64,000 nucleotides of DNA from positions 1 through 64,000 of the forward strand of contig NZ_BMHV01000012.1 in NCBI RefSeq assembly GCF_014641495.1, written 5' to 3'. The DNA comes from Terasakiella brassicae. Lineage in GTDB: Bacteria > Pseudomonadota > Alphaproteobacteria > Rhodospirillales > Terasakiellaceae. The stretch's first letter is position 1. Each line of letters starts with the position of its first letter. Positions 49,126-64,000 of this stretch are shown here, one piece after another. A program made the translations under genes and the position numbers. The notes under the pieces were generated by a model. That model saw only the letters and a list, made by a program, of their open reading frames with translations. It was not told where the DNA came from and did not search any database.

Positions 49126-49126
49126 G

Positions 49127-51847
49127 GTGTCCAATACGGCTATTTTCCTCGCTTCCGCATTTTATCTGGCCTTGTTGTTTGCCATTGCCTATTGGGGCGA
49201 CCGACGCGCAGAACAGGGTCGGAGCCTTTTAAAAAATCCATCCATCTATGCCTTGTCCTTAGCCGTTTATTGTACAAGTTGGACCTTTTACGGATCTGTG
49301 GGGCGTGCCGCCTCGACAGGGGTTGGGTTTTTACCGATTTATATCGGGCCGACTTTGACCTTTTTGCTCGGTTGGTTTGTGATCGGGAAAATCGTGCGGA
49401 TCAGCCGGAAACATCGCATTACCTCAATCGCCGATTTTGTCTCTTCACGTTATGGCAAAAGCCATGTTCTCGGCGGGCTTGTCACTATTATCGCGGTGAT
49501 CGGGATTATGCCTTATATCTCTATCCAGCTAAAGGCGGTCTGGACCAGTTATAATGTGTTGGTGGGTACACAACATTTATCGACGCCGGAAAATCTGTGG
49601 GACGACAAGGCGTTTTATGTCGCGCTGATGATGGCGGCGTTTACCATTCTGTTTGGGACACGCCATATTGATGCGACCGAACAGCATGAAGGTATGGTCA
49701 CCGCCATTGCCTTTGAATCGATGATCAAGCTGTTGGCCTTTTTGGCGGTTGGTTTTTTTGTCAGCTATTCCATGTTCGACGGTGTGTCCGATATTTATGC
49801 TCGTGCGGCGGCTCATCAGGATTTATCGTCGCTTTTGACCATGAGTGCGGTGGAAGGAAACTGGTTTTCCCTGACCTTGTTGGCAATGGTCGTGGTAATT
49901 TTCCTGCCCCGTCAGTTTCAGGTGATCGTCGTGGAAAATACGGATGAACGCCATTTATCGCACGCTGTATGGCTTTTTCCGCTGTATTTGTTGTTGATTA
50001 ACCTGTTTGTTTTACCGATTGCGCTGGGCGGCTTGCTGTATTTCGATCAAGGCGGTGTGGATGCGGATACCTTTGTCCTTGCGCTGCCCTTGGCAGAAGG
50101 ACATCCGTGGTTGGCCTTATTTGTGTTTATCGGGGGATTGTCAGCCGCCACGGGCATGGTCATTGTGGGGGCAATTGCGCTTTCAACGATGATTTGTAAC
50201 GATCTGGTGATGCCGATCCTGTTGCGCTATTTCAAGGCAAATCTGGAAGCGCGCCGCGATATGAGCGTCTTGCTTTTGTTCATCCGGCGCATGGCGATCT
50301 TGCTGATTTTACTGCTCGGCTATCTTTATTATCGCATCATTGGGGAATCTTATGCACTGGTAACGATCGGGTTGGTATCCTTTGCCGCAGCGGCCCAGTT
50401 CGCCCCGGTGATTTTAGGCGGTATTTACTGGAAAGGCGGGACGCAACGCGGGGCTATTGGCGGGTTGCTCGCTGGTTTTTTGGTTTGGGGCTATACGTTG
50501 GTCCTGCCCTCGTTCGCCCTGTCCGATTGGTTGCCGATTGCCTTTGTCAATCAGGGGCCGTTCGGGATTGAGTTGCTGAAACCTTATAATCTGTTCGGGA
50601 TGGGAGGGATGGATCATATCTCCCACGCGCTATTCTGGTCAATGATCGCCAATGTCGGGTTTTATATTCTGATTTCCCTGTTTGACCATCCCAGTGCGAT
50701 TGAACGCATTCAGGCGACCTTGTTTGTGGAGGTCGATCAGCAAACAGCGGTTAATCAAAATGTTGGCTTTTGGGGGGCACAAGTCTCGATCGATGAATTG
50801 CGTGATTTATGTGCGCGCTATATTGGTCCCCATGCGACCGAACGTGCCTTTTATGAACATGCGCAACGGCGCGAGATTGATGTGGGAACATGGGATCAGG
50901 CCGCGCCTTATACGGTGCGCTTTTGCGAACGCCTGCTTGCCGGCGCCATCGGGTCGGCATCGGCGCGTGTGCTGGTGGCTTCTGTTGTGAAAGGCAAAGG
51001 AGCCAGTCTGGACGAAATGCTGGAGGTTTTGGACGAAGCATCTCATGTGATTGAATATTCCCACCAACTGGAACAAAAATCCGATGCACTGGAACAAGCC
51101 CGCAATGAATTGCAACAGGCCAATGAACGCTTGATGCAGTTGGACCGGTTGAAAGATGAGTTTCTATCCCATGTCGCCCATGAATTACGTACGCCCTTGA
51201 CCTCCATTCGGGGTTTTACGGAAATCTTGCATGATAACCCCGATCTGGATATGGAACAGCGCCAGAAGTTCTTGCAGGTCATGGTCGAAGAAAGTCAACG
51301 TCTGACCCGGTTAATCAATCAGGTTCTGGATTTGGCACGGATCGAGTCCGGACGTGAAACCTGGGACATTACTGAAGTGGAAATGCGCGATGTGATTAAG
51401 CATGGCGTGGAAACCTTGATGCAGGAATGCGAGAAAGAAAAAGTTGAGCTGAATGTGGATGTGCCGAAATATCTTTCACTGGTATTGGGGGATAAGGATA
51501 AGCTGACGCAGGTGGTGATTAATCTGATTTCTAATGCGCAGAAAATCTATAAGGGCAAAGGCGGACGGATTGATATTCAACTGGTTGATATGGGCAATCA
51601 TGTCCGCGTTGCTATAAAAGATCAAGGCCCCGGCCTGCATGAAGATGAATTGAAGCTGGTTTTTGAGAAATTCTATCAGGCCAAACAAATTGGAACGGGG
51701 AACCCCACAGGCTCGGGTTTGGGATTGGCGATTTGCCAACGGATTGTTTCGCATCTGGGCGGACGTATCTGGGTGGAAAGCGAGTACGGTCATGGCGCGA
51801 CTTTCTTTTTCACCGTTCCGTTTTCTGATCGGGCGTTGAAGACTTGA
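49127..51847 (+). CDS. Sodium/solute symporter-histidine kinase hybrid (CbrA-like)
   Basis: A 906-residue protein. Residues 1-500 are a PutP-type SSS transporter domain with about thirteen helices (WTFYGSVGRAASTGVGFLPIY, GMVTAIAFESMIKL). A linker and coiled coil follow (500-670), then HisKA with the H-box FLSHVAHELRTPLTSIRGF near residue 682 and an HATPase domain (NLISNAQKIYKGKGG, DQGPGLHEDE, GSGLGLAICQRI). No PAS domain was seen, in contrast to CbrA. GTG 49127 is set by GAGGAGG six bases upstream; the ORF is open to an ATG at 49085 inside the small gene. No response regulator gene is adjacent. Confidence 0.88.
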   Translation: MSNTAIFLASAFYLALLFAIAYWGDRRAEQGRSLLKNPSIYALSLAVYCTSWTFYGSVGRAASTGVGFLPIYIGPTLTFLLGWFVIGKIVRISRKHRITSIADFVSSRYGKSHVLGGLVTIIAVIGIMPYISIQLKAVWTSYNVLVGTQHLSTPENLWDDKAFYVALMMAAFTILFGTRHIDATEQHEGMVTAIAFESMIKLLAFLAVGFFVSYSMFDGVSDIYARAAAHQDLSSLLTMSAVEGNWFSLTLLAMVVVIFLPRQFQVIVVENTDERHLSHAVWLFPLYLLLINLFVLPIALGGLLYFDQGGVDADTFVLALPLAEGHPWLALFVFIGGLSAATGMVIVGAIALSTMICNDLVMPILLRYFKANLEARRDMSVLLLFIRRMAILLILLLGYLYYRIIGESYALVTIGLVSFAAAAQFAPVILGGIYWKGGTQRGAIGGLLAGFLVWGYTLVLPSFALSDWLPIAFVNQGPFGIELLKPYNLFGMGGMDHISHALFWSMIANVGFYILISLFDHPSAIERIQATLFVEVDQQTAVNQNVGFWGAQVSIDELRDLCARYIGPHATERAFYEHAQRREIDVGTWDQAAPYTVRFCERLLAGAIGSASARVLVASVVKGKGASLDEMLEVLDEASHVIEYSHQLEQKSDALEQARNELQQANERLMQLDRLKDEFLSHVAHELRTPLTSIRGFTEILHDNPDLDMEQRQKFLQVMVEESQRLTRLINQVLDLARIESGRETWDITEVEMRDVIKHGVETLMQECEKEKVELNVDVPKYLSLVLGDKDKLTQVVINLISNAQKIYKGKGGRIDIQLVDMGNHVRVAIKDQGPGLHEDELKLVFEKFYQAKQIGTGNPTGSGLGLAICQRIVSHLGGRIWVESEYGHGATFFFTVPFSDRALKT

Positions 51848-52051: not shown

Positions 52052-52309
52052 ATGAATATTTCAAAAGACGAACAGCGGGCGTTGCATGCGCTCGCGCAAG
52101 GTGGTGCGATTCATTTCAAGCGCGCCACGAACGGGCATGTCTATGATGTCCTGTGTTTTAACCGGGATGGTTATGCACTCAGCGGGTTTACGCTGGAAAC
52201 GTTTAGGAAGTTGAAGGTAAAACGGCTGATCCGTTCCAGGAAAGGACTGCCTTATTACATTACACATGAAGGACGTTTGAGAGTGAATGCGCAATTAGAC
52301 AATCGCTAA
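52052..52309 (+). CDS. YjhX-family protein (UPF0386)
   Basis: An 85-residue protein matching the YjhX family along its length: MNISKDEQRALHALAQGG at the start and YYITHEGRLRVNAQLDNR at the end. It looks like a compact winged-helix. In E. coli YjhX is described as a toxin paired with the acetyltransferase YjhQ; no yjhQ homologue is next to this gene. It is convergent with the reductase gene and ends at a bidirectional terminator. Confidence 0.88.
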   Translation: MNISKDEQRALHALAQGGAIHFKRATNGHVYDVLCFNRDGYALSGFTLETFRKLKVKRLIRSRKGLPYYITHEGRLRVNAQLDNR

Positions 52310-52353: not shown

Positions 52354-53628
52354 TTAGGCGAATGTGATTTGTTTCTCACGCACACGCCCCGGTCGGGCGG
52401 CTTGTTCTTCCTGTGCTTCGATCTGTTTCCAGTTATCAAAATCAACCGGGTGGACGTTGCGTTCCTTTAGCAGAGCGTCCAATCCGGCTGGGCCGTTCTT
52501 TTCACTTTCGCCGTTAAAGGCATCAATGGCGAACTTTGCCATTTCCATTGACTCTTTACGGTTGGTCGGGATGGTGCCTTGAGGGCCGTGCTTACACCAA
52601 CCGGCAACGTAAACCCCATCTTCAACCAGCCCATCGTTGTTTTGAACGATGGTTCCGTTCATGGGCAGGCCGGGGATCGGGGCGGTTTCATAACCGATTG
52701 CAGAAATAACTGTGGAAACGGCAATGTCAAAAGTTTCCCCTGTGCTTTGAAGACGTCCATCGATCAAAGCGGTGCGTTCCAGACGCAATCCTTCCACACA
52801 ATCGGTGCCGAGGATTTCAATCGGTTTTGCCCAAAATTGTAAGTGCAGTGTTTTTGCCTTATCGCCACGGTCTTGTTCACTGAGACCGCGTAAAATCTCC
52901 ATATTTTTTTCTTTGTTTTTTTGCGATTTGGGATCTTCTTCCATAGGGACTTCGGTTAAGTCATCATTCAGAATAACGGGATGGCAATGGGCGAGGTGGC
53001 CCAGTTCATTGGCTTCAGATGGGGTGAAGGCCGCTTGGGCCGCGCCCCGGCGTCCAATCATATAAAAATTATCAAGTTTGGCGGCACGGATGGTGTCTTC
53101 GGCATGTAGGCACAAGTCAGAACCTTGCATTTCTTCGGCCGATTTTGCCAGAACACGTACAATATCAATGGCAACATTTCCATTGCCGATAATGGCAACC
53201 CCGTTGGGGCCGAGTTTCGGGGCGAGACTTACAAAATCAGGATGACCATTATACCAGCCGACAAAGGCGCTGGAGCCATAAACACCGGCCAAGTCTTCCC
53301 CCGCGATCCCCATTTTACGATCAACAGAGGCACCGATAGCCAGAAAAACAATGTCGTACAGGTCTTTCAGTTCATCGTATGTGATATCGCGACCGACTTC
53401 GACATTGCCGATAAAGCGCACATTGTCGTTTTGCATGGTGCGCTCAAACTGACGGGTGACATTTTTGGTTCCCTGATGGTCGGGGGCGACACCGGCACGG
53501 ACCAGACCAAACGGTGTATGCAATCGTTCGATCATGTCGATTTGGCAACCGGGGAGTTTCTTTGAAAAGGTATCGGCGGCATAAAAGCCACTGGGACCGG
53601 AACCGATGATGGCGATTTTTGCTGTCAT
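52354..53628 (-). CDS. Adrenodoxin-type ferredoxin/flavodoxin-NADP+ reductase
   Basis: A 424-residue FAD protein related to FprA/adrenodoxin reductase. FAD-binding IIGSGPSGFYAADTF at the N-terminus, the family blocks TPFGLVRAGVAPDH and VRFIGNVEVGRD, NADPH-binding IGNGNVAIDIVRVL, and the C-terminal CKHGPQGTIPTNRKESM. It should pass electrons from NADPH to a ferredoxin. Its start overlaps the end of the PaaX-type regulator gene by four bases, so it is transcribed with that regulator and may supply electrons to the divergent PaaA-like oxygenase. Confidence 0.88.
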   Translation of the reverse strand: MTAKIAIIGSGPSGFYAADTFSKKLPGCQIDMIERLHTPFGLVRAGVAPDHQGTKNVTRQFERTMQNDNVRFIGNVEVGRDITYDELKDLYDIVFLAIGASVDRKMGIAGEDLAGVYGSSAFVGWYNGHPDFVSLAPKLGPNGVAIIGNGNVAIDIVRVLAKSAEEMQGSDLCLHAEDTIRAAKLDNFYMIGRRGAAQAAFTPSEANELGHLAHCHPVILNDDLTEVPMEEDPKSQKNKEKNMEILRGLSEQDRGDKAKTLHLQFWAKPIEILGTDCVEGLRLERTALIDGRLQSTGETFDIAVSTVISAIGYETAPIPGLPMNGTIVQNNDGLVEDGVYVAGWCKHGPQGTIPTNRKESMEMAKFAIDAFNGESEKNGPAGLDALLKERNVHPVDFDNWKQIEAQEEQAARPGRVREKQITFA

Positions 53629-54596
53629 AGGGTCAAACTTTCTGGCAGGGGCGGGGAAGACAGGCCGTTTTCCAATCCGCCAAATCTGTTGAAGAAATAA
53701 GGGCTGGCATCCGGTAAGGGGCCTTCGGCCGTTTCCAGCAGGGATTCAAGGTGTTTTTCTGCACTGGGGGCGCAGAGGCGATAAAGGTTTGCACACAAGG
53801 TGGCTGCGGTGGAACCGGGCCATTCGGCGTTCAGTAAATCATCGGGCAGCATGGGGTCGCGCAGCATGATCCGGCGATATTCGTGGATCAAAAGGGTGCG
53901 CACGAGAAAACTGCTTTCCGGGTCGATCGTTCCTTCCGCACTCAGGGCGTGATAGAGCGGGCGAAAAGCGTCCAGGAAATGATTGTAATCCTGCGCCAAC
54001 TGATCGAGATCCCAACTGCTGTGGACCATATTACGATGGGGGGCCGTGCCGCCGTGACGGTCTGCGCGTGCGGCCATTGTCACCACATTTTCCTCAACGC
54101 CCATATCCTGAATGATTTGGCGAACGGCCCGAATATCTGCGGCAGGGTGGGCAAAGACATTGGGGGCCACGTTGCCAAAACCCAACCATAAAAATTCACG
54201 GCGCAATTGATCGCGTTGTTCCTGTGTCAGGTTGGATTTGTTTGCAATGACCATCAGCCATTCGCCATTCCATGTACGGTGTGGGGAGGCATAAATACGG
54301 CGATGGGCGGTTTCAAAACGACGACGCCCGATTTCAGTCAGCTTGTAATAGCTACGTCGTCCGATTTGTGTGGCGCTGAGCCAATCATCCTTGGACAGTC
54401 GAAAAACGGCAGTGCGCACCATGCGTTCGCTTAAGCCCAAGGGTTCCACAAGGTTGATCAAACTGCCAAGCCAGACTGCCCCGCCATGTGGGAGGATGGC
54501 ATCGCCGTATACGGTGACCAATAAAGATTTGGCACGCAGCGTTGTTTTATCGCGCAAGTCCAGTATGGCATCGTGTATTTTTTTATTCTTTGTCAT
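53625..54596 (-). CDS. PaaX-family transcriptional regulator
   Basis: A 323-residue PaaX-type protein: an N-terminal winged helix (about 30-90, LVEPLGLSERMVRTAVFRL) and the PaaX central and C-terminal domains (WNGEWLMVI, NVAPNVFAHPA, LVRTLLIHEYRRIMLRDPMLPDDLL). PaaX represses phenylacetate catabolic genes and is released by the aryl-CoA. Here it is divergent from the PaaA-like gene, with a long inverted repeat between them. The exact inducer may be another aryl-CoA. Confidence 0.88.
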   Translation of the reverse strand: MTKNKKIHDAILDLRDKTTLRAKSLLVTVYGDAILPHGGAVWLGSLINLVEPLGLSERMVRTAVFRLSKDDWLSATQIGRRSYYKLTEIGRRRFETAHRRIYASPHRTWNGEWLMVIANKSNLTQEQRDQLRREFLWLGFGNVAPNVFAHPAADIRAVRQIIQDMGVEENVVTMAARADRHGGTAPHRNMVHSSWDLDQLAQDYNHFLDAFRPLYHALSAEGTIDPESSFLVRTLLIHEYRRIMLRDPMLPDDLLNAEWPGSTAATLCANLYRLCAPSAEKHLESLLETAEGPLPDASPYFFNRFGGLENGLSSPPLPESLTL

Positions 54597-54695
54597 GGCA
54601 ATTCGATTATTCCGTCTTGAAAAGAGAGTGTGTCCGCATCAACTCATAGCATATCGGGGCTGTTATTTCAGCGTTATCTCTGAGGGGATATAATA

Positions 54696-54733
54696 GTTAC
54701 ACTTTTTATGTATGTCATCATAAAAAGTGTAAC
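54696..54733. promoter_or_regulatory. 15-base perfect inverted repeat, candidate PaaX-type operator
   Basis: GTTACACTTTTTATG (54696-54710) and CATAAAAAGTGTAAC (54719-54733) are exact reverse complements separated by eight bases. The arms lie about 100 bases from the regulator start. No T run follows, so an operator is more likely than a terminator. A related TACACTATT occurs at 54863-54871. Confidence 0.55.
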
Positions 54734-54868
54734 ATAAAGTAATTTGTATCATTGGAAACAAATTATCAAAAAAAATATAATATATAAAATGCTAGAGAAA
54801 TAAAGGGTTAAGACTTGTTATTTGGAGAGGCTTTAAAAAGGAATTGACAGGAATTAATATGATACACT

Positions 54869-54884
54869 ATTCTTTTAAAAGAAT
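54869..54884. promoter_or_regulatory. 16-base palindrome near the PaaA-like gene
   Basis: ATTCTTTTAAAAGAAT is a perfect palindrome flanked by GATACAC on the left and GTGTCATA on the right, so symmetry extends imperfectly to about 40 bases. It lies 75-90 bases before the ATG, near the probable promoter. Confidence 0.4.
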
Positions 54885-54959
54885 CATTAAATGTGTCATA
54901 AGATGATTTTTAGGCGGATAGGCGCCAATCTGAATTGAGATAAACAGTGGAGGAAACTG

Positions 54960-55784
54960 ATGGCTAACTGGAAAACGTACGATAAAGGCGATGAATTGCC
55001 GGAAGAGTACAAGAAGCTCTTATTAAATTTGATGAGCTTCCAGGCAGACTCTGAATATGCCGGGGCGCAGCGTGTTGCGGAAAATATGCGTTTTGCACCG
55101 CGCCCGGAAGAGGCTTACCGCCTGTCCAAGAAAGTGATGGAAGAAATGGGCCACGGCTATTACGTCTGGAACCTGATGTCCGACTTGGGTGTGGATGTAA
55201 ATGCACGTTTACGCGAACTGGTAACGAATCCGAATAACCCGGATCCTAAAAAAGTGACGGTCATTAACGGCTTTCGTAAAGAAAACTGGTCAAAACTGTT
55301 TGAATGCTGGGAAGATGTAGCCCTGTTCTCTACCGTGGTAACGCCGGCGGCTGTGGCCTTCCTTGGTCAGTATCGTGAATGTTCTTACCTGCCGTGGGCA
55401 CGTGTGAATGTGCGTATCCATAAAGAAGAATATGGTCATCTTGCATTCGGTGTTTGGGCATCCAAGCGTTGTATCGAATTTGGCGGTGAAGAAACACGCG
55501 AATTTATGCAAAAGCGCGTTGAGAAATTTATGAAAGTCGGTCTCGGCTTTTATGGTCGCCCGTCAACAGGTGACAAGCAATCTGCCATGTTCGATAAATA
55601 TTACGAATACGGCATCAAAGTGAAAAAACCGGAAGAGTTACAGGAAGAATATCTGGAACTGCTCGAATCACGCCTGAAAGAAGTGGGGCTGGAAGTGCCG
55701 CAAGGTGTGGAAGCGGATTACGACATGCGTGTCGGATACGAAGCGGCCGATCTGGATGATCAAGTGTCCAAGGCTGCTGTCTAG
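54960..55784 (+). CDS. PaaA-like diiron oxygenase subunit (phenylacetic acid catabolic family)
   Basis: A 274-residue ferritin-like protein of the PaaA/PaaC family. All six carboxylate/histidine ligands of a diiron site are visible: E32 (SEYAGA), E62 and H65 (EEMGHGYY), E118 (CWEDVA), E157 and H160 (KEEYGHLAFG). PaaA is the catalytic subunit of the phenylacetyl-CoA 1,2-epoxidase PaaABCDE; this one is shorter than PaaA (about 310) and no paaB, C, D or E is near. It probably oxygenates an aryl-CoA using the divergent NADPH reductase and perhaps a ferredoxin encoded elsewhere. GGAGG six bases before fixes the start. Confidence 0.8.
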   Translation: MANWKTYDKGDELPEEYKKLLLNLMSFQADSEYAGAQRVAENMRFAPRPEEAYRLSKKVMEEMGHGYYVWNLMSDLGVDVNARLRELVTNPNNPDPKKVTVINGFRKENWSKLFECWEDVALFSTVVTPAAVAFLGQYRECSYLPWARVNVRIHKEEYGHLAFGVWASKRCIEFGGEETREFMQKRVEKFMKVGLGFYGRPSTGDKQSAMFDKYYEYGIKVKKPEELQEEYLELLESRLKEVGLEVPQGVEADYDMRVGYEAADLDDQVSKAAV

Positions 55785-55822
55785 ATTATAACGTAAAATA
55801 CAAAAGACAAGGAGGGTTCGCT

Positions 55823-56224
55823 ATGATTCCAGAGTTGCCCAATACACTTTTTTCCAACGGACGTAGTGTGTTGTCCAAATTTGGTTATGTCCATTTTGAA
55901 GATGGTCAGGGTCGTGATGACTGGGCAGAGATGTGGGAACATTTAAGGGGGGATTTCCCGTTACCGCTGGATGCTGTCCCCAGTTTTAATGATCTGGAGG
56001 CAACGGTTCAAGAGGCTGCGCGCCAATATATGAAAGTGCGCTTGTTGGCGGATCATTATCTGGATGACTGCGAACGCCTTCATGTTCGTATTTTTAACGG
56101 TAGTATCGAAACCGATTTGGTTGAAGATTACGCCGTGGCACGTGATCGTTATGAACATAGTGTCGAAGAGTTTGGGGAGACACGCGAGGCTGTTCAGAAA
56201 CTGTTGAGCAAACGCGCGGCCTAA
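55823..56224 (+). CDS. Small unknown protein coupled to the PaaA-like gene
   Basis: A 133-residue soluble, acidic, mainly helical protein with no recognised domain. It begins 38 bases after the PaaA-like stop with its own AAGGAGGG. Position suggests a partner or regulator of the oxygenase, perhaps structurally replacing PaaB, PaaC or PaaD, but sequence gives no proof. Confidence 0.7.
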   Translation: MIPELPNTLFSNGRSVLSKFGYVHFEDGQGRDDWAEMWEHLRGDFPLPLDAVPSFNDLEATVQEAARQYMKVRLLADHYLDDCERLHVRIFNGSIETDLVEDYAVARDRYEHSVEEFGETREAVQKLLSKRAA

Positions 56225-56348
56225 CCTGCTGAAAAGTCGATGCCTTTCTTGATGGGGAAGGGAAGTCCAAAAAGGAAGGTGTCGTCTTTGGTTGTCAGTC
56301 AAAGAAGTGGAATATTTTTTTGCTTGACGATTGGTTTTTATTAAAATA

Positions 56349-56362
56349 GTTTCAATTGAAAC
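56349..56362. promoter_or_regulatory. 14-base palindrome, candidate operator
   Basis: GTTTCAATTGAAAC is a perfect palindrome about 170-185 bases before the binding-protein gene. The TTCAATTGAA core resembles sites of several MarR-type regulators of aromatic genes, but no regulator can be named. Confidence 0.4.
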
Positions 56363-56434
56363 AAATAAGAAAGAGGAATATCCGGGCTTTCCGGGTAAAA
56401 AATCTCACGGGATCAGACTTTTGCATGCAATGTT

Positions 56435-56448
56435 TTGATATAGATCAT
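56435..56448. promoter_or_regulatory. FNR-like site
   Basis: TTGATATAGATCAT matches TTGAT-N4-ATCAA except at the last base. Possible oxygen-responsive control of the transporter genes; chance is not excluded. Confidence 0.3.
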
Positions 56449-56532
56449 GTGGTTTGCAAACATTCTGCTTAAGCTGATCGAACTAAATTAAAAAACAAAC
56501 GATATATTGTCTATTTGGGAGGCAAACAAATT

Positions 56533-57702
56533 ATGACTTCACGTCACAACCAAGTTAAGAAGACAGTCGCTGCACTGGGGATGGTCGCCGGTGCAATGGC
56601 ATTTGGTGCCACAACGTCTGATGCTGCGGATCCGATCAAGATCGGGACTTTCCTATCCGTAACAGGCCCGGCCTCATTTTTGGGTGATCCGGAACTGAAA
56701 ACACTGGAACTTTATATTGAAGAACTGAATGCCAATGGCGGTGTTTTGGGTCGCCAGGTTGAACTGATTCAATATGATGTCGGTGTTGATTCCAAAAAAG
56801 CGATTACAGCTGTAAAACGTCTGGTCAGTCAGGATGAAGTGGACGTTATTGTCGGTGGTTCAACATCCGGTGCCACGATGGCGGTGATTCCGATCGTTGA
56901 AAAATCACAAGTCCCGTTTATTTCGTTGGCAGGTGCCGTTGCGATTGTTGAGCCGGTTAAGAAATGGACGTTCAAGACACCTCATACCGATAAAATGGCC
57001 TGTGGTAAAATTTTTGAAGATTTACAAGCGCGTGGCCTGAACGATATCGCCATGATTTCCGGTACGGGCGGTTTTGGTAAATCCATGAAAGGCCAGTGCG
57101 AAAAATTGGCGCCGGCCTATAAAATCAATATCAAGGCCTCTGAATCTTACGGGCCGAAAGATACCGACATGACCGCACAGTTGACAAAGATTAAAGGCAT
57201 TGACGGTGTACAAGCGGTTGTCAACGCTGGCTTTGGTCAAGGCCCGGCGATCGTGACGAAAAACTATCGTCAGCTTGGTATGACGGCACCGCTTTACCAG
57301 TCTCATGGTGTGGCATCCAAGAAATATATCGATTTGGCGGGGGAAGCGGCTGAAGGTGTGCGTCTTCCGGCAGCGGCTTTGTTGGTTGCTGACATGTTGC
57401 CGGATTCAGATCCGCAAAAAGCTGTGGTTCAGACTTATACCAAAGCTTATAGCGAAGCGTATGGTGGGTCGGTTTCCACGTTTGGCGGTCATGCCTATGA
57501 CGGCCTGCAAATAGCGGTTGCCGCGATTACGCGCGCGGGCAGCACTGACAAAGCAGCTGTTCGTGACGAGATCGAAAAAACCAGTGGCTACATCGGTACC
57601 GGTGGCGTTGTGAATATGACGCCAGAAGACCACCTTGGTCTGGACTTGTCTGCGTTCAAGATGCTGGAAATCAAGAACGGTAACTGGTCTATCGTGAAAT
57701 AA
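56533..57702 (+). CDS. Branched-chain amino acid-type ABC transporter substrate-binding protein
   Basis: A 389-residue periplasmic protein with a signal peptide (1-30, ending TTSDA) and a LivJ/K-type fold: IKIGTFLSVTGPASFLGDPE, VIVGGSTSGATMAVIPIVEK, a SGTGGFGKSM block and YDGLQIAVAAI. In the context of PaaX, PaaA-like and PaaK genes the ligand is probably an aromatic acid, as for the related R. palustris hba transporters. GGGAGG ten bases upstream supports the ATG at 56533. Confidence 0.87.
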   Translation: MTSRHNQVKKTVAALGMVAGAMAFGATTSDAADPIKIGTFLSVTGPASFLGDPELKTLELYIEELNANGGVLGRQVELIQYDVGVDSKKAITAVKRLVSQDEVDVIVGGSTSGATMAVIPIVEKSQVPFISLAGAVAIVEPVKKWTFKTPHTDKMACGKIFEDLQARGLNDIAMISGTGGFGKSMKGQCEKLAPAYKINIKASESYGPKDTDMTAQLTKIKGIDGVQAVVNAGFGQGPAIVTKNYRQLGMTAPLYQSHGVASKKYIDLAGEAAEGVRLPAAALLVADMLPDSDPQKAVVQTYTKAYSEAYGGSVSTFGGHAYDGLQIAVAAITRAGSTDKAAVRDEIEKTSGYIGTGGVVNMTPEDHLGLDLSAFKMLEIKNGNWSIVK

Positions 57703-57711
57703 CGTCGAATT

Positions 57712-57741
57712 TTGGGGGAGGGCGATCCCTTCCCCAATTTT
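57712..57741 (+). terminator. Intercistronic hairpin after the binding-protein gene
   Basis: TTGGGGGAGGG (57712-57722) pairs with CCCTTCCCCAA (57727-57737, one G-U pair) across a four-base loop and is followed by TTTT. It should cause partial termination or protect the binding-protein mRNA, as at the dctP-dctQ boundary. Confidence 0.7.
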
Positions 57742-57814
57742 CTAAAACGTCCTGTTTCTGTGGTTTTATCCAAGAAGCAACAGGTAAATTATATCCGCAA
57801 GAAAGACGTAAAAA

Positions 57815-58690
57815 ATGTTCGCAGAATTCCTGCAATTCCTTTTTTCCGGTATTACGTTGGGGGCGACCTATGCGCTGGTCGGGCTTGGGTTCTCCATCAT
57901 CTACAACGCATCGCACGTGATCAACTTTGCGCAAGGCGAATTTGTCATGCTGGGCGGAATGGGAACCGTTTTCTTTCTCGGCCTCGGTTTGCCGATGCCG
58001 ATTGCCATTCTGGCGGCGATTGCATTGACCACCCTGTTCGGTTTTGGTCTGGAAAAATTAGCAATTGCCCCGGCGCGTGGTGCGTCCGTTGTCACCCTGA
58101 TTATCATTACCATCGGTGCCTCAATCGTCATGCGTGGGCTGGCTCAGGTTTTTTGGGGCAAGGAATTCCATGCCGTTCCTGCATTCAGCGGGGATGAGCC
58201 GATCAATATTGCAGGGGCCACGATTTTACCGCAAAGCCTGTGGGTGTTGGGGGTGACGGTTTTACTTGTGTTTGCTTTGCGCTATTTCTTCGATAAAACC
58301 ATGATGGGGAAAGCGATTATTGCAACATCGTTAAACCGTGATGCCGCCCTTTTGATGGGAATTAATGTCAAGTTGGTGCTGTTTATCAGTTTCGGTTTGT
58401 CGGCTGCCTTGGGCGCGATTGCCGGTATCTTGGTCGCCCCGATTACACTGACGAACTTTGAAGCCGGTATCATGCTGGGCCTGAAAGGGTTCTGCGCCGC
58501 CATACTTGGTGGATTGGGCAATGGCATGGGTGCGGTTGCCGGTGGCATGATCGTCGGCATTGCCGAAGCAATGGGGGCGGGCTACTGGGTCTCTGAATAT
58601 AAAGATGCGGTTGCTTTTATCCTTATTCTTCTCGTCCTGTTCTTTAAACCGAGCGGCCTGTTCGGTAAAACCGGAACGGAGCGCGTGTAA
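57815..58690 (+). CDS. livH: ABC transporter permease, LivH type
   Basis: A 291-residue inner-membrane permease with about eight helices. LivH blocks: GITLGATYALVGLGFSIIYNASHVINFAQGEFVMLGG and GLGNGMGAVAGGMIVGIAEA (shortened here as the patterns NFAQGEF and GGLGNGMGA). It pairs with the LivM-type protein. Its stop overlaps the next ATG (TAATG). Confidence 0.9.
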   Translation: MFAEFLQFLFSGITLGATYALVGLGFSIIYNASHVINFAQGEFVMLGGMGTVFFLGLGLPMPIAILAAIALTTLFGFGLEKLAIAPARGASVVTLIIITIGASIVMRGLAQVFWGKEFHAVPAFSGDEPINIAGATILPQSLWVLGVTVLLVFALRYFFDKTMMGKAIIATSLNRDAALLMGINVKLVLFISFGLSAALGAIAGILVAPITLTNFEAGIMLGLKGFCAAILGGLGNGMGAVAGGMIVGIAEAMGAGYWVSEYKDAVAFILILLVLFFKPSGLFGKTGTERV

Positions 58691-59625
58691 TGATGATGAA
58701 TTTGAAATCAGCCAAAACAGGCGGAATTCTGGTGCTTTGTGCCGTTATTGCAATCCTGCCTGCGTTTTTGAGCAATGCCTTCCAATATGAAATCGCCATT
58801 CTTATCGGTTTTAACGCGATTGTCTGTATCGGTTTGAACCTTTTAATCGGTTATGGCGGGCAAATCAGTCTGGGACACGGTGCATTTGTCGGTCTCGGGG
58901 CTTACGGCAGCGCGATTTTGACGATGAACCAAGGCTGGGACCCGCTTCTTTCAATGGTCATTGCCGCGATTTTCACCGGGATACTCGCCTTTGTTATTGC
59001 GCGTCCGATCCTGAAATTAAAGGGGCACTATCTGGCGATGGCGACTTTGGGGATGGGGATCATCATTTCCATTGTGATCAATACCGAAGACCAGTTGACC
59101 GGCGGCCCGGATGGCATGTATGTGGACGGCTTGTCCTTTATGGCAACGCAAATTTATTGGTATTGGTTGGTGGGCGCCCTTCTGGTGTTCAGTGTGTGGG
59201 CCTCTCTTAACCTGATCCATTCGCCTATCGGTCGTGCCCTGCGTGCGGTTCATGGCTCAGAAGTGGCGGCCGAGGTGGTCGGGGTAGATACCACGCAGTA
59301 TAAAGTCCTGATTTTCGTGGTCTCTGCTGTATTTGCCAGCATTGTGGGCAGCTTTGGTGTCTATTATTCGAATTTTGTTACACCGGATATTGCAGGGTTC
59401 TTCCATTCCATCGAACTGGTGGTGATGGTGGTGTTTGGCGGTATGGCCTCTACCTTTGGGGCGGTCATTGGGGCGGCTATTCTGACGACCCTGCCGCAAT
59501 TTTTGACCTTCTTACATGATTATGAGCATCTGGTTTTTGGCTTGATCTTAATGCTGACCATGATTTTCCTGCCCAAAGGTCTGGTACCGAGTATTGCAGG
59601 CCTGTTGAAGAAGGGAGATAAGTGA
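58690..59625 (+). CDS. livM: ABC transporter permease, LivM type
   Basis: A 311-residue inner-membrane permease with eight or nine helices and the LivM block LLIGYGGQISLGHGAFVGLGA followed by the C-terminal FGGMASTFGAVIGAAILT. Three ATGs in a row begin the gene. The stop overlaps the LivG-type ATG (TGATG). Confidence 0.9.
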   Translation: MMMNLKSAKTGGILVLCAVIAILPAFLSNAFQYEIAILIGFNAIVCIGLNLLIGYGGQISLGHGAFVGLGAYGSAILTMNQGWDPLLSMVIAAIFTGILAFVIARPILKLKGHYLAMATLGMGIIISIVINTEDQLTGGPDGMYVDGLSFMATQIYWYWLVGALLVFSVWASLNLIHSPIGRALRAVHGSEVAAEVVGVDTTQYKVLIFVVSAVFASIVGSFGVYYSNFVTPDIAGFFHSIELVVMVVFGGMASTFGAVIGAAILTTLPQFLTFLHDYEHLVFGLILMLTMIFLPKGLVPSIAGLLKKGDK

Positions 59626-60380
59626 TGACCCTTTTGAAAGTCAACAACCTGAGCATTGAATTTGGTGGTGTGCGCGCGATTGATGACCTGTCTTTCACGA
59701 TTAATTCGGGGACCATTCATTCGATCATCGGACCAAACGGGGCGGGTAAAACAACTTTGTTCAACCTGATCACCGGTGTTTATACGCCGACCAGCGGTAC
59801 GATCCTTTATGATGATGAAGGGGTGACGGGGTTTAAATCTTATGAACTGGCAGCGCGCGGCATGTCGCGCACGTTCCAGAACTTGCAGATTTTCTTCAAT
59901 ATGACGGCAATTGAAAACGTCATGGTCGGTGCCCATTTGCATTTGAACCGGGGGTTCCTTGCCTCCTTCTTCGGGCTTCCGTCTATTAAAGCCGGTGATC
60001 GTCATTGCCGGGAAACCTGTCTGGAACTGCTGGATTTTGTCGGCCTGAAAAAATATGCCGATATTGATACGGAAAGCATGCCTTATGGGGCGCTCAAACG
60101 TTTGGAAATTGCGCGTGCCTTGGCATCCAAGCCCAAAATCCTGTTGCTGGATGAACCAGCGGCGGGCCTGAACCCGGCGGAAAGCCGCGAGATTGATAAA
60201 GTCATCAAAAAAGTGGCGGAACGCGGCATTACAGTTGTTCTGGTGGAACATGACATGAAAATGGTGATGGAAATTTCAGACCATATCCTTGTCCTTGATT
60301 ACGGGCGCAAACTGACGGAAGGCACCGCACTTGAAGTGCGTAACAATCCAGACGTTATTGCGGCATATTTGGGGGGCTAA
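59625..60380 (+). CDS. livG: ABC transporter ATPase, LivG type
   Basis: A 251-residue ATPase. Walker A GPNGAGKTTLFN, Q-loop SRTFQNL, a LivG-type insertion MVGAHLHLNRG, Walker B ILLLDEPAAGLNP, and the H-loop VVLVEHDMKMVM are visible. The signature motif reads YGALKRLEIAR instead of the usual LSGGQ/YGxQRxLEIAR; the middle glycine-glutamine pair is altered. GGGAG before the ATG at 59625; GTG at 59622 is in frame. Confidence 0.9.
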   Translation: MTLLKVNNLSIEFGGVRAIDDLSFTINSGTIHSIIGPNGAGKTTLFNLITGVYTPTSGTILYDDEGVTGFKSYELAARGMSRTFQNLQIFFNMTAIENVMVGAHLHLNRGFLASFFGLPSIKAGDRHCRETCLELLDFVGLKKYADIDTESMPYGALKRLEIARALASKPKILLLDEPAAGLNPAESREIDKVIKKVAERGITVVLVEHDMKMVMEISDHILVLDYGRKLTEGTALEVRNNPDVIAAYLGG

Positions 60381-60384
60381 GGCG

Positions 60385-61089
60385 ATGTTGAAAATTCAAA
60401 ATCTCACCAGTCATTACGGACGTATTCAAGCCTTGCATGGGGTCGATCTGGAAGTCAACGAAGGCGAACTGGTTGCTTTGGTCGGCGGCAATGGTGCGGG
60501 AAAAACCACCTTGTTGCGTACCATTTCCGGCTTGCAGGATGCCAGTGGTGGTTCGGTTAGCTTTGAAGGAAATGATATTACCGACATGGTGGCCAACAAA
60601 CGCGTTGGACTGGATATTGCACAGGTGCCGGAAGGCCGTCAGGTCTTTACCGCCTTGTCGGTGGAAGACAATATTCGTCTGGGGGCCTTTATTCAAAAAG
60701 ACAAAGCCCGGATTGCCACCGATCTTGAAAAAATGTATGCGCGTTTTCCCATTTTGAAGGAAAAACGTAACCAAGCCGCCGGAACGCTTTCCGGTGGACA
60801 GCAACAAATGTTGGCGATGGCGCGTGCCCTGATGTCACGCCCCCGTTTATTGTTGCTGGATGAACCCAGCATGGGCCTGTCGCCGGTGTTGGTTATGGAA
60901 ATTTTCGCAATTATTGAAGAGCTCAAGGAACAGGGTGTGACCATCTTTCTGGTGGAACAGAACGCCACGGCTGCGCTGCGTGTTGCAGATCGTGGGTATG
61001 TGATGGAAACCGGAAAAATCACACTGACGGGTAGTGGGGAAAACCTGCTGAATGACGAAACTGTCAAGGCAGCCTACCTAGGTATTTAA
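60385..61089 (+). CDS. livF: ABC transporter ATPase, LivF type
   Basis: A 234-residue ATPase with Walker A GGNGAGKTTLLR, the LivF block IAQVPEGRQVF, signature LSGGQQQMLAMARAL, Walker B LLLLDEPSMGLSP and H-loop FLVEQNA. It is the second nucleotide-binding subunit and starts five bases after livG. The ORF is open upstream only within livG. Confidence 0.92.
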   Translation: MLKIQNLTSHYGRIQALHGVDLEVNEGELVALVGGNGAGKTTLLRTISGLQDASGGSVSFEGNDITDMVANKRVGLDIAQVPEGRQVFTALSVEDNIRLGAFIQKDKARIATDLEKMYARFPILKEKRNQAAGTLSGGQQQMLAMARALMSRPRLLLLDEPSMGLSPVLVMEIFAIIEELKEQGVTIFLVEQNATAALRVADRGYVMETGKITLTGSGENLLNDETVKAAYLGI

Positions 61090-61112
61090 TTGGAATAATG
61101 GAACTTTAAGCA

Positions 61113-62069
61113 ATGACAAAGAATTTTGCATCCGCAGCCGATTTAGACGAAAAGCAGGTTTCTTTCGAGAAACTGGGCGAAGGCCTGTACGCTTATACGG
61201 CGGAAGGCGACCCCAATACCGGCATTATTATCGGTGATGACGGTGTGATGGTTATCGATACGCAGGCCACCCCGACGATGGCACAAGATGTCATTCGTCG
61301 CATTCGCGAAGTGACGGATTTACCGATCAAATATGTGCTGATGTCACATTATCATGCCGTGCGTGTGATGGGGGCCTCTGCTTATAAGCCTGAACAAATC
61401 ATTGCCTCTAAACCCACCTATGATTTGATTGTGGAACGGGGCGAACATGATTTCAAATCTGAAGTCGGTCGTTTCCCGCGTTTGTTTAACGATGTGGAAT
61501 CTGTGCCGGGTCTGACATGGCCGTCGATGGTGTTTGAAGGCAAGATGACCATCTTCATGGGCAAACGCCGTGTGGAAATTATCCATGCCGGACGCGGTCA
61601 TACCGCAGGCGATACGATTGCATGGTTGCCGGACGATGGGGTGTTATTCTCCGGTGATCTGGTTGAATTTGGGGCAACACCTTACACAGGGGATGCCCAT
61701 CTGGAAGACTGGCCACAAACCTTGAATGTTTTGCGTGAGTTGAAACCGCAAAAACTGGTACCGGGGCGTGGGGCTGCATTGATGACGCCTGAATTATGTG
61801 AACAGGCAATTGCTGAAACACAGGATTTTCTGGAATCCATGTATGGTGCAGTTAAAAAGGGCCGTGCAGAAGGCAAGGAACTGGGCCAGATTTACAAAGA
61901 TGCATATGCCGCGCTTAAGCCGAAGTTTGGCGACTGGGTGATTTTCGATCACTGCCTGCCTTTTGATGTGACGCGTGCCTTTGACGAAGCCGGTGGGCTG
62001 GATCATCCCCGCATTTGGACCGCAGAACGTGATGTCGAGATGTGGAAAGCACTCGAAGAAGTCGAATAA
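61113..62069 (+). CDS. Metallo-beta-lactamase-fold protein with a degraded metal motif
   Basis: A 318-residue cytoplasmic protein of the MBL fold. The usual HxHxDH motif reads H79-Y-H81-A-V83-R84, so the Asp and His of the second metal site are lost. H163 (GRGHTAGD) and D182 (FSGDLVE) of the first site remain. It could bind one metal, with altered chemistry. A distinct C-terminal region (about 220-318) has FDHCLPFDVTRAFDEA. Being 23 bases after livF, it should act in the same aromatic pathway, perhaps on a CoA thioester or ring-cleavage product; this is inference. Confidence 0.75.
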   Translation: MTKNFASAADLDEKQVSFEKLGEGLYAYTAEGDPNTGIIIGDDGVMVIDTQATPTMAQDVIRRIREVTDLPIKYVLMSHYHAVRVMGASAYKPEQIIASKPTYDLIVERGEHDFKSEVGRFPRLFNDVESVPGLTWPSMVFEGKMTIFMGKRRVEIIHAGRGHTAGDTIAWLPDDGVLFSGDLVEFGATPYTGDAHLEDWPQTLNVLRELKPQKLVPGRGAALMTPELCEQAIAETQDFLESMYGAVKKGRAEGKELGQIYKDAYAALKPKFGDWVIFDHCLPFDVTRAFDEAGGLDHPRIWTAERDVEMWKALEEVE

Positions 62070-62107
62070 AACGCATAACTGAAACGATTTTTGAATGGGG
62101 GTCTGAC

Positions 62108-62701
62108 ATGACCAAAGCCATTACTATTATGAAAAGAGAACACCTAAGCTTGAATACGGTCTTGCATGTTCTCAATCAACTTGTGCTGGATCTGGAATCG
62201 GGACGTTTGCGTTCTGACGATGTTGATTATGAATTGATCGAAAAGATCATGCATTATATCGAGGAATTTCTCGATACCATGCATCATCCCAAAGAAGATA
62301 ATTACCTTTTTCCGGCCTTGTTGAAAAAAACGTCCGAAGCCAATGATGTTATTCTGGAGCTTCAGGAACAGCATGAAAAAGGGGTGGAACACCGCAAACG
62401 TTTGGAAGTTCATATTCAGGCGATGAAAGATAAACACCCCGGTCAGACCGAAAAGGTTATTGATGCCTTGAAAGACTATCTGGCAGCACACCGTGCACAT
62501 ATGAAGCTGGAAGACACAGTCGTAATTCCGCTTGCCGAACGCGTTCTGACGGAAGAAGATTGGGCACCGATTGACGCGGCCTTTAATGAAAACAAGGATC
62601 CTGTGTTTGGCGACATTCCGCAAAACAAGTTCCGCAAACTATTGTCCGATATTACTTTTCTTGCGCCTTCACCGATTGGATTAGGCGGAGGAAGAAAATA
62701 G
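62108..62701 (+). CDS. Hemerythrin-domain protein (aromatic operon)
   Basis: A 197-residue HHE protein with candidate ligands in KREHLS (near 12), HHPKEDNYLF (about 58-67), QEQHEKGVEHRK and AAHRAHMKLED. It is the last gene of the transporter/MBL run and ends at a strong terminator. It is not closely similar to the hemerythrin at 24744. It may store or deliver O2 to the PaaA-like diiron oxygenase or sense oxygen. The ATG at 62108 starts the conserved part; the frame is open to 62042 inside the MBL gene. Confidence 0.82.
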   Translation: MTKAITIMKREHLSLNTVLHVLNQLVLDLESGRLRSDDVDYELIEKIMHYIEEFLDTMHHPKEDNYLFPALLKKTSEANDVILELQEQHEKGVEHRKRLEVHIQAMKDKHPGQTEKVIDALKDYLAAHRAHMKLEDTVVIPLAERVLTEEDWAPIDAAFNENKDPVFGDIPQNKFRKLLSDITFLAPSPIGLGGGRK

Positions 62702-62739
62702 TTCTCCTAGGCTGTCGAGAGTGTAATGCCTTCCAAGGC

Positions 62740-62790
62740 GGCCTGACTTTACAGGCCGGGTTCTTTAAAACGAGAACCCGGTCTTTTTTT
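62740..62790 (+). terminator. Terminator of the aromatic transport operon
   Basis: CCGGGTTCT (62756-62764) pairs with AGAACCCGG (62773-62781), followed by a run of T (62784-62790). A smaller hairpin GGCCTG/CAGGCC (62740-62757) precedes it. The convergent gene ends inside the T run. Confidence 0.88.
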
Positions 62791-63478
62791 ATTGGGTATA
62801 AGTTTGCTGTTTTAATTGGTCATATGCCCCGTTGGCTTTCAGGCGCCGGAGTGCCTCAGCCAGTTTATGTGCTTCTTCCTGTCTGCTTTTATGAAAGAAA
62901 AGATAAGACGGTGTGCTGTGTAGTGGGGGATAAAGGAAGCGGAACGGATGGTCTGTGCGGTTTTTAAGTAAGCTATGCGCAATTGTTTCAGACAGTAAAA
63001 TGATATGAACCCGATCAATTTCCAGCAAATTAAACAACTGCATATGATCGTTTACTGTGGTTGTCTTGGTGCTTGCGGGTACATTGGCGTCAAAAATTTT
63101 CCATCCTGCAGGGTACGCCACTTTATAGGGGGCTAGGTCGGCCCAACTTTTTACAATAATGTCGTCGCGTTTGGTAATAGCGATGAAGTCAATATGGAGA
63201 ACAGGTTCGTCCATTTTGATGATATTTGGATAACGTTCTTCCAATATGCGCAAACGTAGGCCATTAGCGTCAATACGTCCCTCATTCAGTTCGACCAAAG
63301 CACGGCGAGAGGGAATAGTAATAATTTTAGCCTCTAGTTTTACATCGTTCAGTAATTCAGGCAACAGTGCTTCCAGAAAGACATTGTTTTGTTCAACCGA
63401 TATGGTCAACGGATTGGCGTGAGATGTTGACGAGACGTGGTTGAGCAAAAATAAAGCGAAGATGAAGAGGCGAGACAT
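62789..63478 (-). CDS. Periplasmic solute-binding protein, family 3-like
   Basis: A 229-residue exported protein with a signal peptide (1-20, ending STSHA) and the type II binding fold of SBP_bac_3 proteins (LTISVEQNN, LLPELLND, RRALVELNEGRIDA, VAYPAGWKIFD). It is smaller than a typical amino-acid binding protein and no permease gene is near, so it might be an orphan or sensory binding protein. Confidence 0.72.
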   Translation of the reverse strand: MSRLFIFALFLLNHVSSTSHANPLTISVEQNNVFLEALLPELLNDVKLEAKIITIPSRRALVELNEGRIDANGLRLRILEERYPNIIKMDEPVLHIDFIAITKRDDIIVKSWADLAPYKVAYPAGWKIFDANVPASTKTTTVNDHMQLFNLLEIDRVHIILLSETIAHSLLKNRTDHPFRFLYPPLHSTPSYLFFHKSRQEEAHKLAEALRRLKANGAYDQLKQQTYTQ

Positions 63479-63552
63479 ACTTTGTAAGCCACCTGAGGGC
63501 TGAGTGATTCTGTTGTGATTATCCTACATACATGATCGGGCGAGGGCCAGAC

Positions 63553-63580
63553 AAAAAAAGAGGCTTCCAAGAAGCCTCTT
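63553..63580 (-). terminator. Terminator of the phenylacetate-CoA ligase gene
   Basis: AGAGGCTTC (63559-63567) pairs with GAAGCCTCT (63571-63579). On the minus strand it is followed by a run of seven T (63559-63553). Confidence 0.88.
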
Positions 63581-63607
63581 ACAAAATTGAATTTTCGTCA
63601 GATAACA

Positions 63608-64000
63608 TCAATCCTTGGGCCGGATATCCGTTACCCGTTGCGCTTTGCCTTGTGAGCGTGGAATGGCACCGGGTTCCAGAACTTCGATTTTGGTTGAAAT
63701 ACCGATGTAGGATTTGATGTGATGGGACAGGTTCTTTTTAATGTCATCGTCGTTGTCCTGACCACTTTTATTGCGTTCGACCTGAACTTTCAGTTTATCC
63801 AGATGTCCGTCACGCGATAACACGAGATGATAGTGCGGGCTGAGGCGCGGATCACGTAGCACTTGTTCTTCGATCTGACTGGGGAAGACGTTGACGCCGC
63901 GAATAATCATCATATCATCCGAACGTCCGGTGATTTTGTCAAAACGCCGCATGGTGCGTGCAGTCCCCGGCAGCAAACGGGTTAAATCCTTGGTACGGTA
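63608..64000 (-). CDS. paaK: Phenylacetate-CoA ligase, C-terminal part (gene continues past the window)
   Basis: 130 residues of the C-terminal domain of a PaaK-family adenylate-forming ligase, open to the window edge. Clear family blocks are YRTKDLTRLLPG, the hinge and C-domain MRRFDKITGRSDDMMIIRG, GVNVFPSQIEEQVL and the end sequence with the catalytic lysine in RSQGKAQRV. PaaK activates phenylacetate to its CoA thioester, the substrate type for PaaA-family oxygenases. It is the activating step expected for the nearby cluster. Confidence 0.92.
   Translation of the reverse strand, partial: YRTKDLTRLLPGTARTMRRFDKITGRSDDMMIIRGVNVFPSQIEEQVLRDPRLSPHYHLVLSRDGHLDKLKVQVERNKSGQDNDDDIKKNLSHHIKSYIGISTKIEVLEPGAIPRSQGKAQRVTDIRPKD

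Follow-up and report, generated by a model that had tools for sequence, protein, structure and literature searches.

The first 64,000 bases of contig NZ_BMHV01000012.1 of Terasakiella brassicae (assembly GCF_014641495.1), referred to here as the window, carry part of a phenylacetate (paa) gene cluster with an unusual set of oxygenase genes. The set comprises a PaaA-like protein (alpha), a second protein of the PaaA family PF05138 (beta), a protein of 133 amino acids (gamma), an FprA-type reductase and a flavodoxin, and it is probably an alternative phenylacetyl-coenzyme A (CoA) 1,2-epoxidase, standing in place of PaaABC(D)E and fed by NADPH (reduced nicotinamide adenine dinucleotide phosphate) through FprA and flavodoxin. 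This reading is based on gene content, conservation, homology, co-occurrence, a shared palindrome and predicted folds; the substrate, epoxidation, complex formation, electron route, cofactors and the role of PaaX are what we infer. The FprA-type reductase gene and paaX form one operon (4-bp overlap), divergent from the alpha gene, which is followed by gamma, Liv transporter genes, a metallo-beta-lactamase (MBL)-fold gene, a hemerythrin gene and the end of paaK. Past the window, which is part of a 132,870-base contig (C12, with coordinates continuing those of the window), the cluster runs through paaK, J, I, H, G and F to beta, and divergent from beta lie the genes for flavodoxin, a PaaN-type dehydrogenase and paaY (Table 1).

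Most of the phenylacetate pathway can be recognized in this cluster. PaaK, PaaJ, PaaI, PaaG, PaaN and PaaX score over their curated cut-offs, and PaaH, PaaY and PaaF fall short of theirs by 0.8, 14 and 28 bits. The epoxidase is a different matter. No PaaB, PaaC, PaaD or PaaE gene was seen in the 64-kb window, in line with the first-pass annotation, and in the whole source genome (3.64 Mb, 99.7% complete) PaaB (PF06243) had 0 matches, with matches in 3 of 14 control genomes, while alpha and beta are the only two PF05138 proteins. The search for a separate paaABCDE is less firm for PaaE: nothing in the source genome exceeded its cut-off (best 138.6 bits, cut-off 420.8), a weaker negative because none of the control genomes passed it either. 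The better of the two weak PaaE matches is encoded on another contig, at the same locus as a multihaem c-type-like open reading frame (ORF). Among the matches listed, E. coli PaaD matched nothing in the loci of relatives except those with canonical paaABC, and no genome-wide PaaD search was made. Alpha itself scores 83.5 bits with the PaaA equivalog model TIGR02156, whose cut-off is 280 bits. With two PF05138 proteins only, no PaaB and no PaaE over cut-off, the epoxidase is the main part of the pathway that has no textbook protein, and the locus does resemble, as proposed from the window, an aryl-CoA oxygenase system that lacks PaaB, PaaC and PaaE and adjoins a reductase of general type.

The same arrangement recurs in other bacteria. 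Two peptide patterns, run against 84,980 species genomes in a scan that was not exhaustive, picked out 35 named loci, which argues against chance. Their hosts include Terasakiella and close kin, Novispirillum, Roseospira, Azospirillum, Rhodocyclaceae (Sulfuritalea, Propionivibrio), Oceanospirillum multiglobuliferum, Phenylobacterium and others. In 32 of the 35 genomes neither PaaB nor a PF05138 match of canonical strength was found. The first-pass annotation had listed gamma as a small unknown protein; it indeed has no Pfam or NCBIfam family over cut-off, but it is a core part of the set, found near alpha in all 35 loci and downstream on the same strand in 34 (in Phenylobacterium it lies about 1 kb away on the opposite strand). 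Beta is present in 30 of the 35 genomes and adjoins flavodoxin in 29 of these, the thirtieth being cut by a contig end; PaaG is near beta in 28 of the 30. PaaX was identified in 27 of the 35 loci and FprA homologs in 28. Alpha and beta are both present in every one of the five same-genus genomes examined. In a draw of 385 genomes of the class, 85 have PF05138 proteins at E 1e-10 and seven match alpha at E 1e-20, one as a fragment with stops; gamma, with the best ten candidates per genome scored, occurs in six, exactly those with full-length alpha. Beta occurs in ten at E 1e-30: the six alpha genomes, three in which it is linked to canonical genes and one weak match. These counts are not independent, as the six include the source genome, four others (G125, G160, G222 and G406) are those of loci L050, L051, L046 and L048, and three of the five same-genus genomes are, by position, those of L027-L029. 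Alpha was found only in the source genome in a draw of 329 genomes of the phylum, and a plasmid search returned nine records, all below 60% identity. Overall the set is uncommon and patchily distributed, and its genes are tightly linked.

Alpha is 97% identical to its nearest named relative, in Terasakiella pusilla. A tree of 81 rows was built from 14 of 35 aligned alpha sequences, 14 of 31 aligned beta sequences with a further one (L194), and hand-picked canonical PaaA (12), canonical PaaC (12), BoxB (4) and "other" PF05138 proteins (24). The 14 alpha rows fall on one side of a branch with a support of 100 in the Shimodaira-Hasegawa-like approximate likelihood ratio test (SH-aLRT); the values are 99 for beta and 100 each for PaaA, PaaC and BoxB. 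Adding three canonical-linked beta rows and removing two long-branch "other" rows gave a second tree, in which support is 99 for alpha and 98 for beta together with the canonical-linked rows. Placement inside canonical PaaA or PaaC, the outcome that would have spoken against the first-pass annotation, was thus not obtained in either tree (100 and 99), and by sequence alpha is a clade of its own outside PaaA, PaaC and BoxB. Its AlphaFold model (mean predicted local distance difference test score, pLDDT, 90.6) best matches PaaA in the PDB (3pw8_C, E 9.4e-11, template modelling score 0.74), followed by a Sulfolobus PaaA-like protein and PaaC, and then by cyanobacterial aldehyde-deformylating oxygenase and BoxB, which ranks below PaaA and PaaC.

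Neither partner protein corresponds to the canonical subunit whose place it would take. The beta gene lies 5.8 kb beyond the end of the window, and beta was rejected as a PaaC homolog: hhalign gave 98.7% with E. coli PaaA and 0.3% with PaaC, beta forms its own clade, and at 1e-8 its NCBIfam matches do not include TIGR02158. Gamma is predicted to be an all-helical hairpin (pLDDT 81.6), with no PDB fold match better than E 0.43 and a best PDB sequence match of E 0.21. The PaaB dimer forms a beta-barrel, according to the available text of PMC9493321, and gamma was rejected as a remote PaaB on the predicted hairpin, an hhalign value of 1.9% and the lack of a convincing PDB match.

The two arms of the cluster have a promoter element in common. 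The palindrome TGAYAC-N25..29-GTRTCA occurs once in the 64-kb window, upstream of alpha (Markov expectation 0.03), and a second time in the adjoining 20-kb piece, where it lies between the beta and flavodoxin genes. The pattern was drawn up from these promoters, so that its count in the window is not an independent test, but its rarity elsewhere is. In the loci of relatives (1.03 Mb, partly overlapping) there are 23 matches, ten before alpha, eleven before flavodoxin and two elsewhere; one is counted twice where L052 and L120 overlap, leaving 20 of 22 before alpha or flavodoxin. The strict form is not in 26 of 35 alpha promoters and is in 12 of 36 flavodoxin promoters, not in the other 24. The core of the E. 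coli PaaX site is TGATTC, which the palindrome resembles, making PaaX its likely binder. A second element of the paaX/alpha intergenic region, the 14-bp inverted repeat TTACACTTTTTATG, is not repeated upstream of beta.

Taken as an epoxidase, the set would work as follows. Alpha would bind the CoA thioester and activate O2 at a diiron-type site. Beta, which is degenerate, would pair with it structurally in the way that PaaC pairs with PaaA, and gamma would replace PaaB as the coupling or bridging component. Electrons would pass from NADPH to FprA (with flavin adenine dinucleotide), to flavodoxin (with flavin mononucleotide) and on to alpha, replacing the single PaaE. The resulting 1,2-epoxyphenylacetyl-CoA would go to PaaG, then to the PaaN-type dehydrogenase and the PaaF/H/J route, and PaaX would repress both arms through the shared operator.

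Several observations weigh against this reading, and its weakest points are the loss of an aspartate ligand in alpha, the genomes without beta, the presence of beta beside canonical paaABCDE and the exchange of the reductase in relatives. The deep branches between the groups are weak in both trees, with a long-branch warning that in the 81-row tree includes alpha and canonical PaaA. Since many of the 35 genomes were assembled from metagenomes, an absence may reflect missing sequence. The pathway downstream also has a missing step. The PaaN protein has no hydratase domain, and alternative oxepin-CoA hydrolases, of the kind that could accompany such a PaaN, are described in the available part of PMC9007349. 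No clear gene for one was found here: no candidate exceeded the cut-off of NF046063, for which the best match (200.7 of 300 bits) is PaaG itself and which no control genome passed.

In BoxB, as given in the available text of PMC5489048, Fe1 is bound by Glu120 and His153, Fe2 by Asp211, Glu240 and His243, and Glu150 is bridging, so that the six first-shell ligands are three Glu, two His and one Asp. The ligands of alpha were aligned in the window's protein and 34 of the 35 named alphas (L035 left out), which are 65-98% identical to it, with the two long-branch "other" rows excluded. E32, E62, H65, E157 and H160 are invariant in all 35 sequences, in agreement with five of the six ligands named at first; E118, the sixth, is Glu in only 21 of 35, and the position of the aspartate (Asp126 in E. 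coli PaaA, Asp211 in BoxB) is Thr128 in all 35. The register is gap-free from W117 to E157, and hhalign also pairs T128 with Asp126, opening a short gap further on. The Asp ligand is kept in 20 of 22 "other" rows. D119 was considered as the missing acid and rejected. This residue does not vary, yet an Asp stands at the same position of E. coli PaaA in addition to the ligand Asp126, and in a regular helix the distance of nine residues from T128 should turn D119 away from the site; the predicted model breaks the helix at residue 127. PaaA has a lysine bridge in which Lys68 is joined to Glu49, Glu72 and Asp126 (PMC4498308, available text); in alpha it is half lost, with K58 and E62 kept and Glu49 and Asp126 replaced by Val39 and Thr128. 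On this alignment alpha has five of the six ligands, not the full canonical set, and without the Asp ligand its metal site may be different or inactive.

If inactive, alpha could be a regulatory or structural relic left after iron-ligand loss, with another enzyme attacking the ring, as Thr128 at the position of an Fe2-binding residue of BoxB would allow. This seems very improbable, given that the other five ligands are invariant across sequences 65-98% identical to the window's protein and that the only other PF05138 protein is degraded further. Beta keeps E43, E171 and H174 in 31 of 31 sequences and H76 in 30 of 31, but Lys73 replaces the bridging Glu and Gly142 the Asp in all 31, leaving alpha as the better candidate for a working site. 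A different site is the subject of another account, in which the set would be a second phenylacetyl-CoA epoxidase with an assembly of its own. This enzyme would work without the Asp ligand, be loaded or activated by its own flavodoxin, possibly have a manganese/iron or otherwise unusual metal centre, and use a new helical effector to replace PaaB. NrdI, a flavodoxin-type protein that loads or activates the metal centre of class Ib ribonucleotide reductase, offers a parallel, and we regard this account as conceivable, if rather doubtful.

The genomes without beta bear on the number of subunits. Beta was not found in five of the 35, three of them isolates. Genomes where the search gave no beta include Phenylobacterium sp. 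J367, where alpha is on a 4.8-Mb contig, and two Azospirillum, which keep alpha, gamma and flavodoxin; a beta-free version of the set may exist in Phenylobacterium sp. J367 and these two. Beta homologs also stand beside canonical paaABCDE, as the sixth gene after it, in three genomes of the class (L199 7346-8050, L200 6642-7358, L201 6501-7202); they are 46-50% identical to the beta of the source genome and keep the Lys and Gly substitutions, and L199 lacks two further ligands. Beta is therefore not exclusive to alpha, although its position after paaABCDE ties it to the epoxidation step. Both observations would suit an oxygenase made of alpha alone with FprA and a general carrier, beta being an unrelated paralog, and BoxB shows that a CoA epoxidase can consist of one protein (PMC4498308, available text). 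The first-pass annotation had proposed one catalytic subunit of this kind from the window, where beta cannot be seen. This explanation is improbable: beta is tied to flavodoxin and paa genes in the large majority of the alpha genomes (30 of 35), it is present in each of the six class genomes with full-length alpha, and the operator-like palindrome is common to both promoter regions. The first-pass annotation was thus largely right in what it observed, with one wrong ligand and a second subunit beyond its view, and half right in its interpretation, since beta and the small partner protein go with alpha.

The alternative epoxidase also has to be reconciled with the three of the 35 genomes, two Novispirillum and Oceanospirillum, that hold PaaB and canonical paaABCDE on another contig, so the two systems may not be equivalent. 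The set might then act on another aryl-CoA, e.g., hydroxylated or substituted phenylacetyl-CoA. Residues near the site do differ from PaaA, V39 standing for Glu49 and Q28, four residues ahead of the first Glu ligand, being shared with BoxB (His in E. coli PaaA), and the Phenylobacterium cluster holds a Rieske-type oxygenase and other ligases (names from sequence). A different substrate is nonetheless unlikely, as PaaK, PaaG, PaaI and PaaX score over equivalog cut-offs in the cluster and the 32 genomes without PaaB or a canonical-strength PF05138 match offer nothing else to explain those paa genes.

The electron supply varies as well. The FprA-type reductase matches M. tuberculosis FprA (1lqt, E 3.1e-75) and adrenodoxin reductase (E 1.4e-73) in phmmer searches. 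Seven of the 35 loci have no FprA: L035 is truncated at the end of its contig, a different pyridine-nucleotide reductase lies close by in L046 and L048, L050 has an ORF resembling the reductase ORF of L048, and at L052 no other reductase was identified. The remaining two are the Azospirillum loci L055 (6197-8666) and L056, where the place of the reductase is taken by a PaaE-like 2Fe-2S reductase and an AurF-like diiron protein, the latter under the Pfam cut-off. The reductase is thus not constant across relatives (Azospirillum, L046, L048, L052), a swap that fits a general electron donor to flavodoxin. The beta-free cluster of Phenylobacterium sp. J367 (L135 5851-17675) is compact, with flavodoxin, FprA, alpha (65% identical), PaaX, gamma, PaaF- and PaaG-like genes, the Rieske-type oxygenase and AMP (adenosine monophosphate) ligases, some of these named from sequence.

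Table 1. Features of the cluster and the matches on which their names are based; coordinates marked C12 lie past the window.
Feature	Position	Strand	Basis or remark
FprA-type NADPH-ferredoxin/flavodoxin reductase (adrenodoxin-reductase family)	52354..53628	-	phmmer to 1lqt
PaaX repressor	53625..54596	-	TIGR02277 319.1 bits, cut-off 264.55
Perfect 14-bp inverted repeat, TTACACTTTTTATG + complement	54697..54732	.	paaX/alpha intergenic region
Candidate operator TGATAC-N27-GTGTCA	54860..54898	.	100 bp upstream of alpha
Alpha, PaaA-like putative oxygenase subunit	54960..55784	+	PF05138 86.6 bits
Gamma, 133 aa, predicted helical hairpin	55823..56224	+	near alpha in 35/35 named loci
LivK-type substrate-binding protein	56533..57702	+	PF13458 E 2.4e-55
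LivH-type permease	57815..58690	+	name from sequence alone; homologs in some relatives
LivM-type permease	58690..59625	+	name from sequence alone; homologs in some relatives
LivG-type ATPase	59625..60380	+	name from sequence alone; homologs in some relatives
LivF-type ATPase	60385..61089	+	name from sequence alone; homologs in some relatives
MBL-fold protein, degenerate HYHAVR motif	61113..62069	+	PF00753 E 9.3e-15
Hemerythrin HHE-domain protein	62108..62701	+	PF01814 E 1.1e-13
PaaK phenylacetate-CoA ligase	63608..64912 (3' part to 64000 in window)	-	TIGR02155 679 bits, cut-off 646.3
PaaJ-type thiolase	C12 64980-66185	-	TIGR02430 735.4, cut-off 597
PaaI	C12 66182-66727 (ORF; true start possibly further in)	-	TIGR02286 147.6, cut-off 118.9
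PaaH	C12 66624-68162	-	TIGR02279 668.6, cut-off 669.4
PaaG	C12 68165-68956	-	TIGR02280 417.6, cut-off 345.15
PaaF-like	C12 68962-69765	-	NF007239 343.3, cut-off 371
Beta, 255 aa	C12 69831-70598	-	PF05138 78.6 bits
Second palindrome	C12 70667-70705	.	between beta and flavodoxin
Flavodoxin	C12 70842-71291	+	PF00258 E 3.2e-26
PaaN	C12 71347-73005	+	TIGR02288 834.6, cut-off 578.75; Pfam: Aldedh only
PaaY-like	C12 73092-73703	+	TIGR02287 305.7, cut-off 319.6

The names first given to the window's genes (PaaX, the FprA-type reductase, the divergent PaaA-like protein, the Liv-type transporter, the hemerythrin and PaaK) are borne out by the matches in Table 1. The MBL-fold protein, called odd at the outset, is so: the usual metal motif of the fold is HxHxDH, and this protein has HYHAVR in 12 of 12 rows from nine distinct loci, with TIGR04558 as its best NCBIfam match (112.6 bits, under the cut-off of 300). 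It appears to be a degenerate metallohydrolase and lies near alpha in some genomes only. A weak family-3 solute-binding protein, under the Pfam cut-off, lies between the hemerythrin gene and paaK (62789-63478). On the other side, a YjhX-family protein (52052-52309, PF09857, E 2e-34; annotated as a putative toxin family) adjoins the reductase gene, and a 920-residue sensor histidine kinase (49085-51847) is apparently fused to a transporter-like membrane domain.

Known systems share parts of this set. FprA and adrenodoxin reductase chains belong to the same reductase family and would likewise deliver NADPH electrons to a small carrier; their known partners are ferredoxin and P450, whereas here the reductase gene neighbours that of a putative PaaA-like oxygenase and co-occurs with flavodoxin. 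The PaaABCE complex of E. coli (PDB 3pvr, 3pw8) provides alpha's best fold match and five of its six ligands, has PaaK, G, F, H, I, J, X and Y as common neighbours, and makes it likely that the set, too, forms a heteromer with a degenerate ferritin-fold partner. It differs in that alpha forms its own clade with Asp126 and Glu49 replaced by Thr and Val, the partner is PaaA-related and not PaaC-related, a predicted helical protein stands against PaaB and FprA with flavodoxin against PaaE, and no PaaD gene was seen in the set's cluster. BoxAB, too, is a CoA-ester diiron epoxidase with a separate reductase, and a Gln likewise precedes its first Glu ligand by four residues; however, BoxB is about 480 residues long, forms a separate clade and keeps its Asp ligand, and BoxA is a 4Fe-4S (four-iron, four-sulfur) reductase in the available text of PMC4498308, unlike FprA and flavodoxin. 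Single PF05138 proteins beside gentisate-type genes are, like alpha, candidate PaaA-family oxygenases outside paaABCDE, but they stand apart from alpha in the tree and have a PaaE-like reductase in L175. Such "other" proteins lie with PaaE-like reductase and short-chain-dehydrogenase-like ORFs in L175 (2235-6045) and L177 (4314-8180), the Pfam search of the reductase covering L175, and beside a gentisate-1,2-dioxygenase-like ORF in L175 and L126; the PF05138 proteins of L175, L177 and L126 may be true one-subunit aryl-CoA oxygenases.

No description of such a gene set was found in the open-access papers searched (supplementary tables not covered), and the set is probably a variant, not described in the literature searched, of a known epoxidase type. 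In its available text, a 2026 survey treats PaaA and PaaC as robust pathway markers counted through one shared architecture, PaaA_PaaC, places the "PaaA-PaaC only" configuration mostly in Bacilli and Halobacteria with none in Betaproteobacteria, and reports no PaaX or PaaR near PaaK in six Azospirillum species (PMC13186573). Judged from that text, counting by PaaA_PaaC would likely not tell the set from the canonical epoxidase. If the proposed function is correct, the set would show that CoA-dependent aromatic epoxidases can be put together in a second manner, with another chain of electron carriers and a modified metal site, and would be a natural test of which parts the chemistry needs among PaaB, PaaE, the Asp ligand and the lysine bridge. 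It would also account for phenylacetate use, a putative growth trait, by Terasakiella, Roseospira and some Rhodocyclaceae in the absence of paaABCDE.

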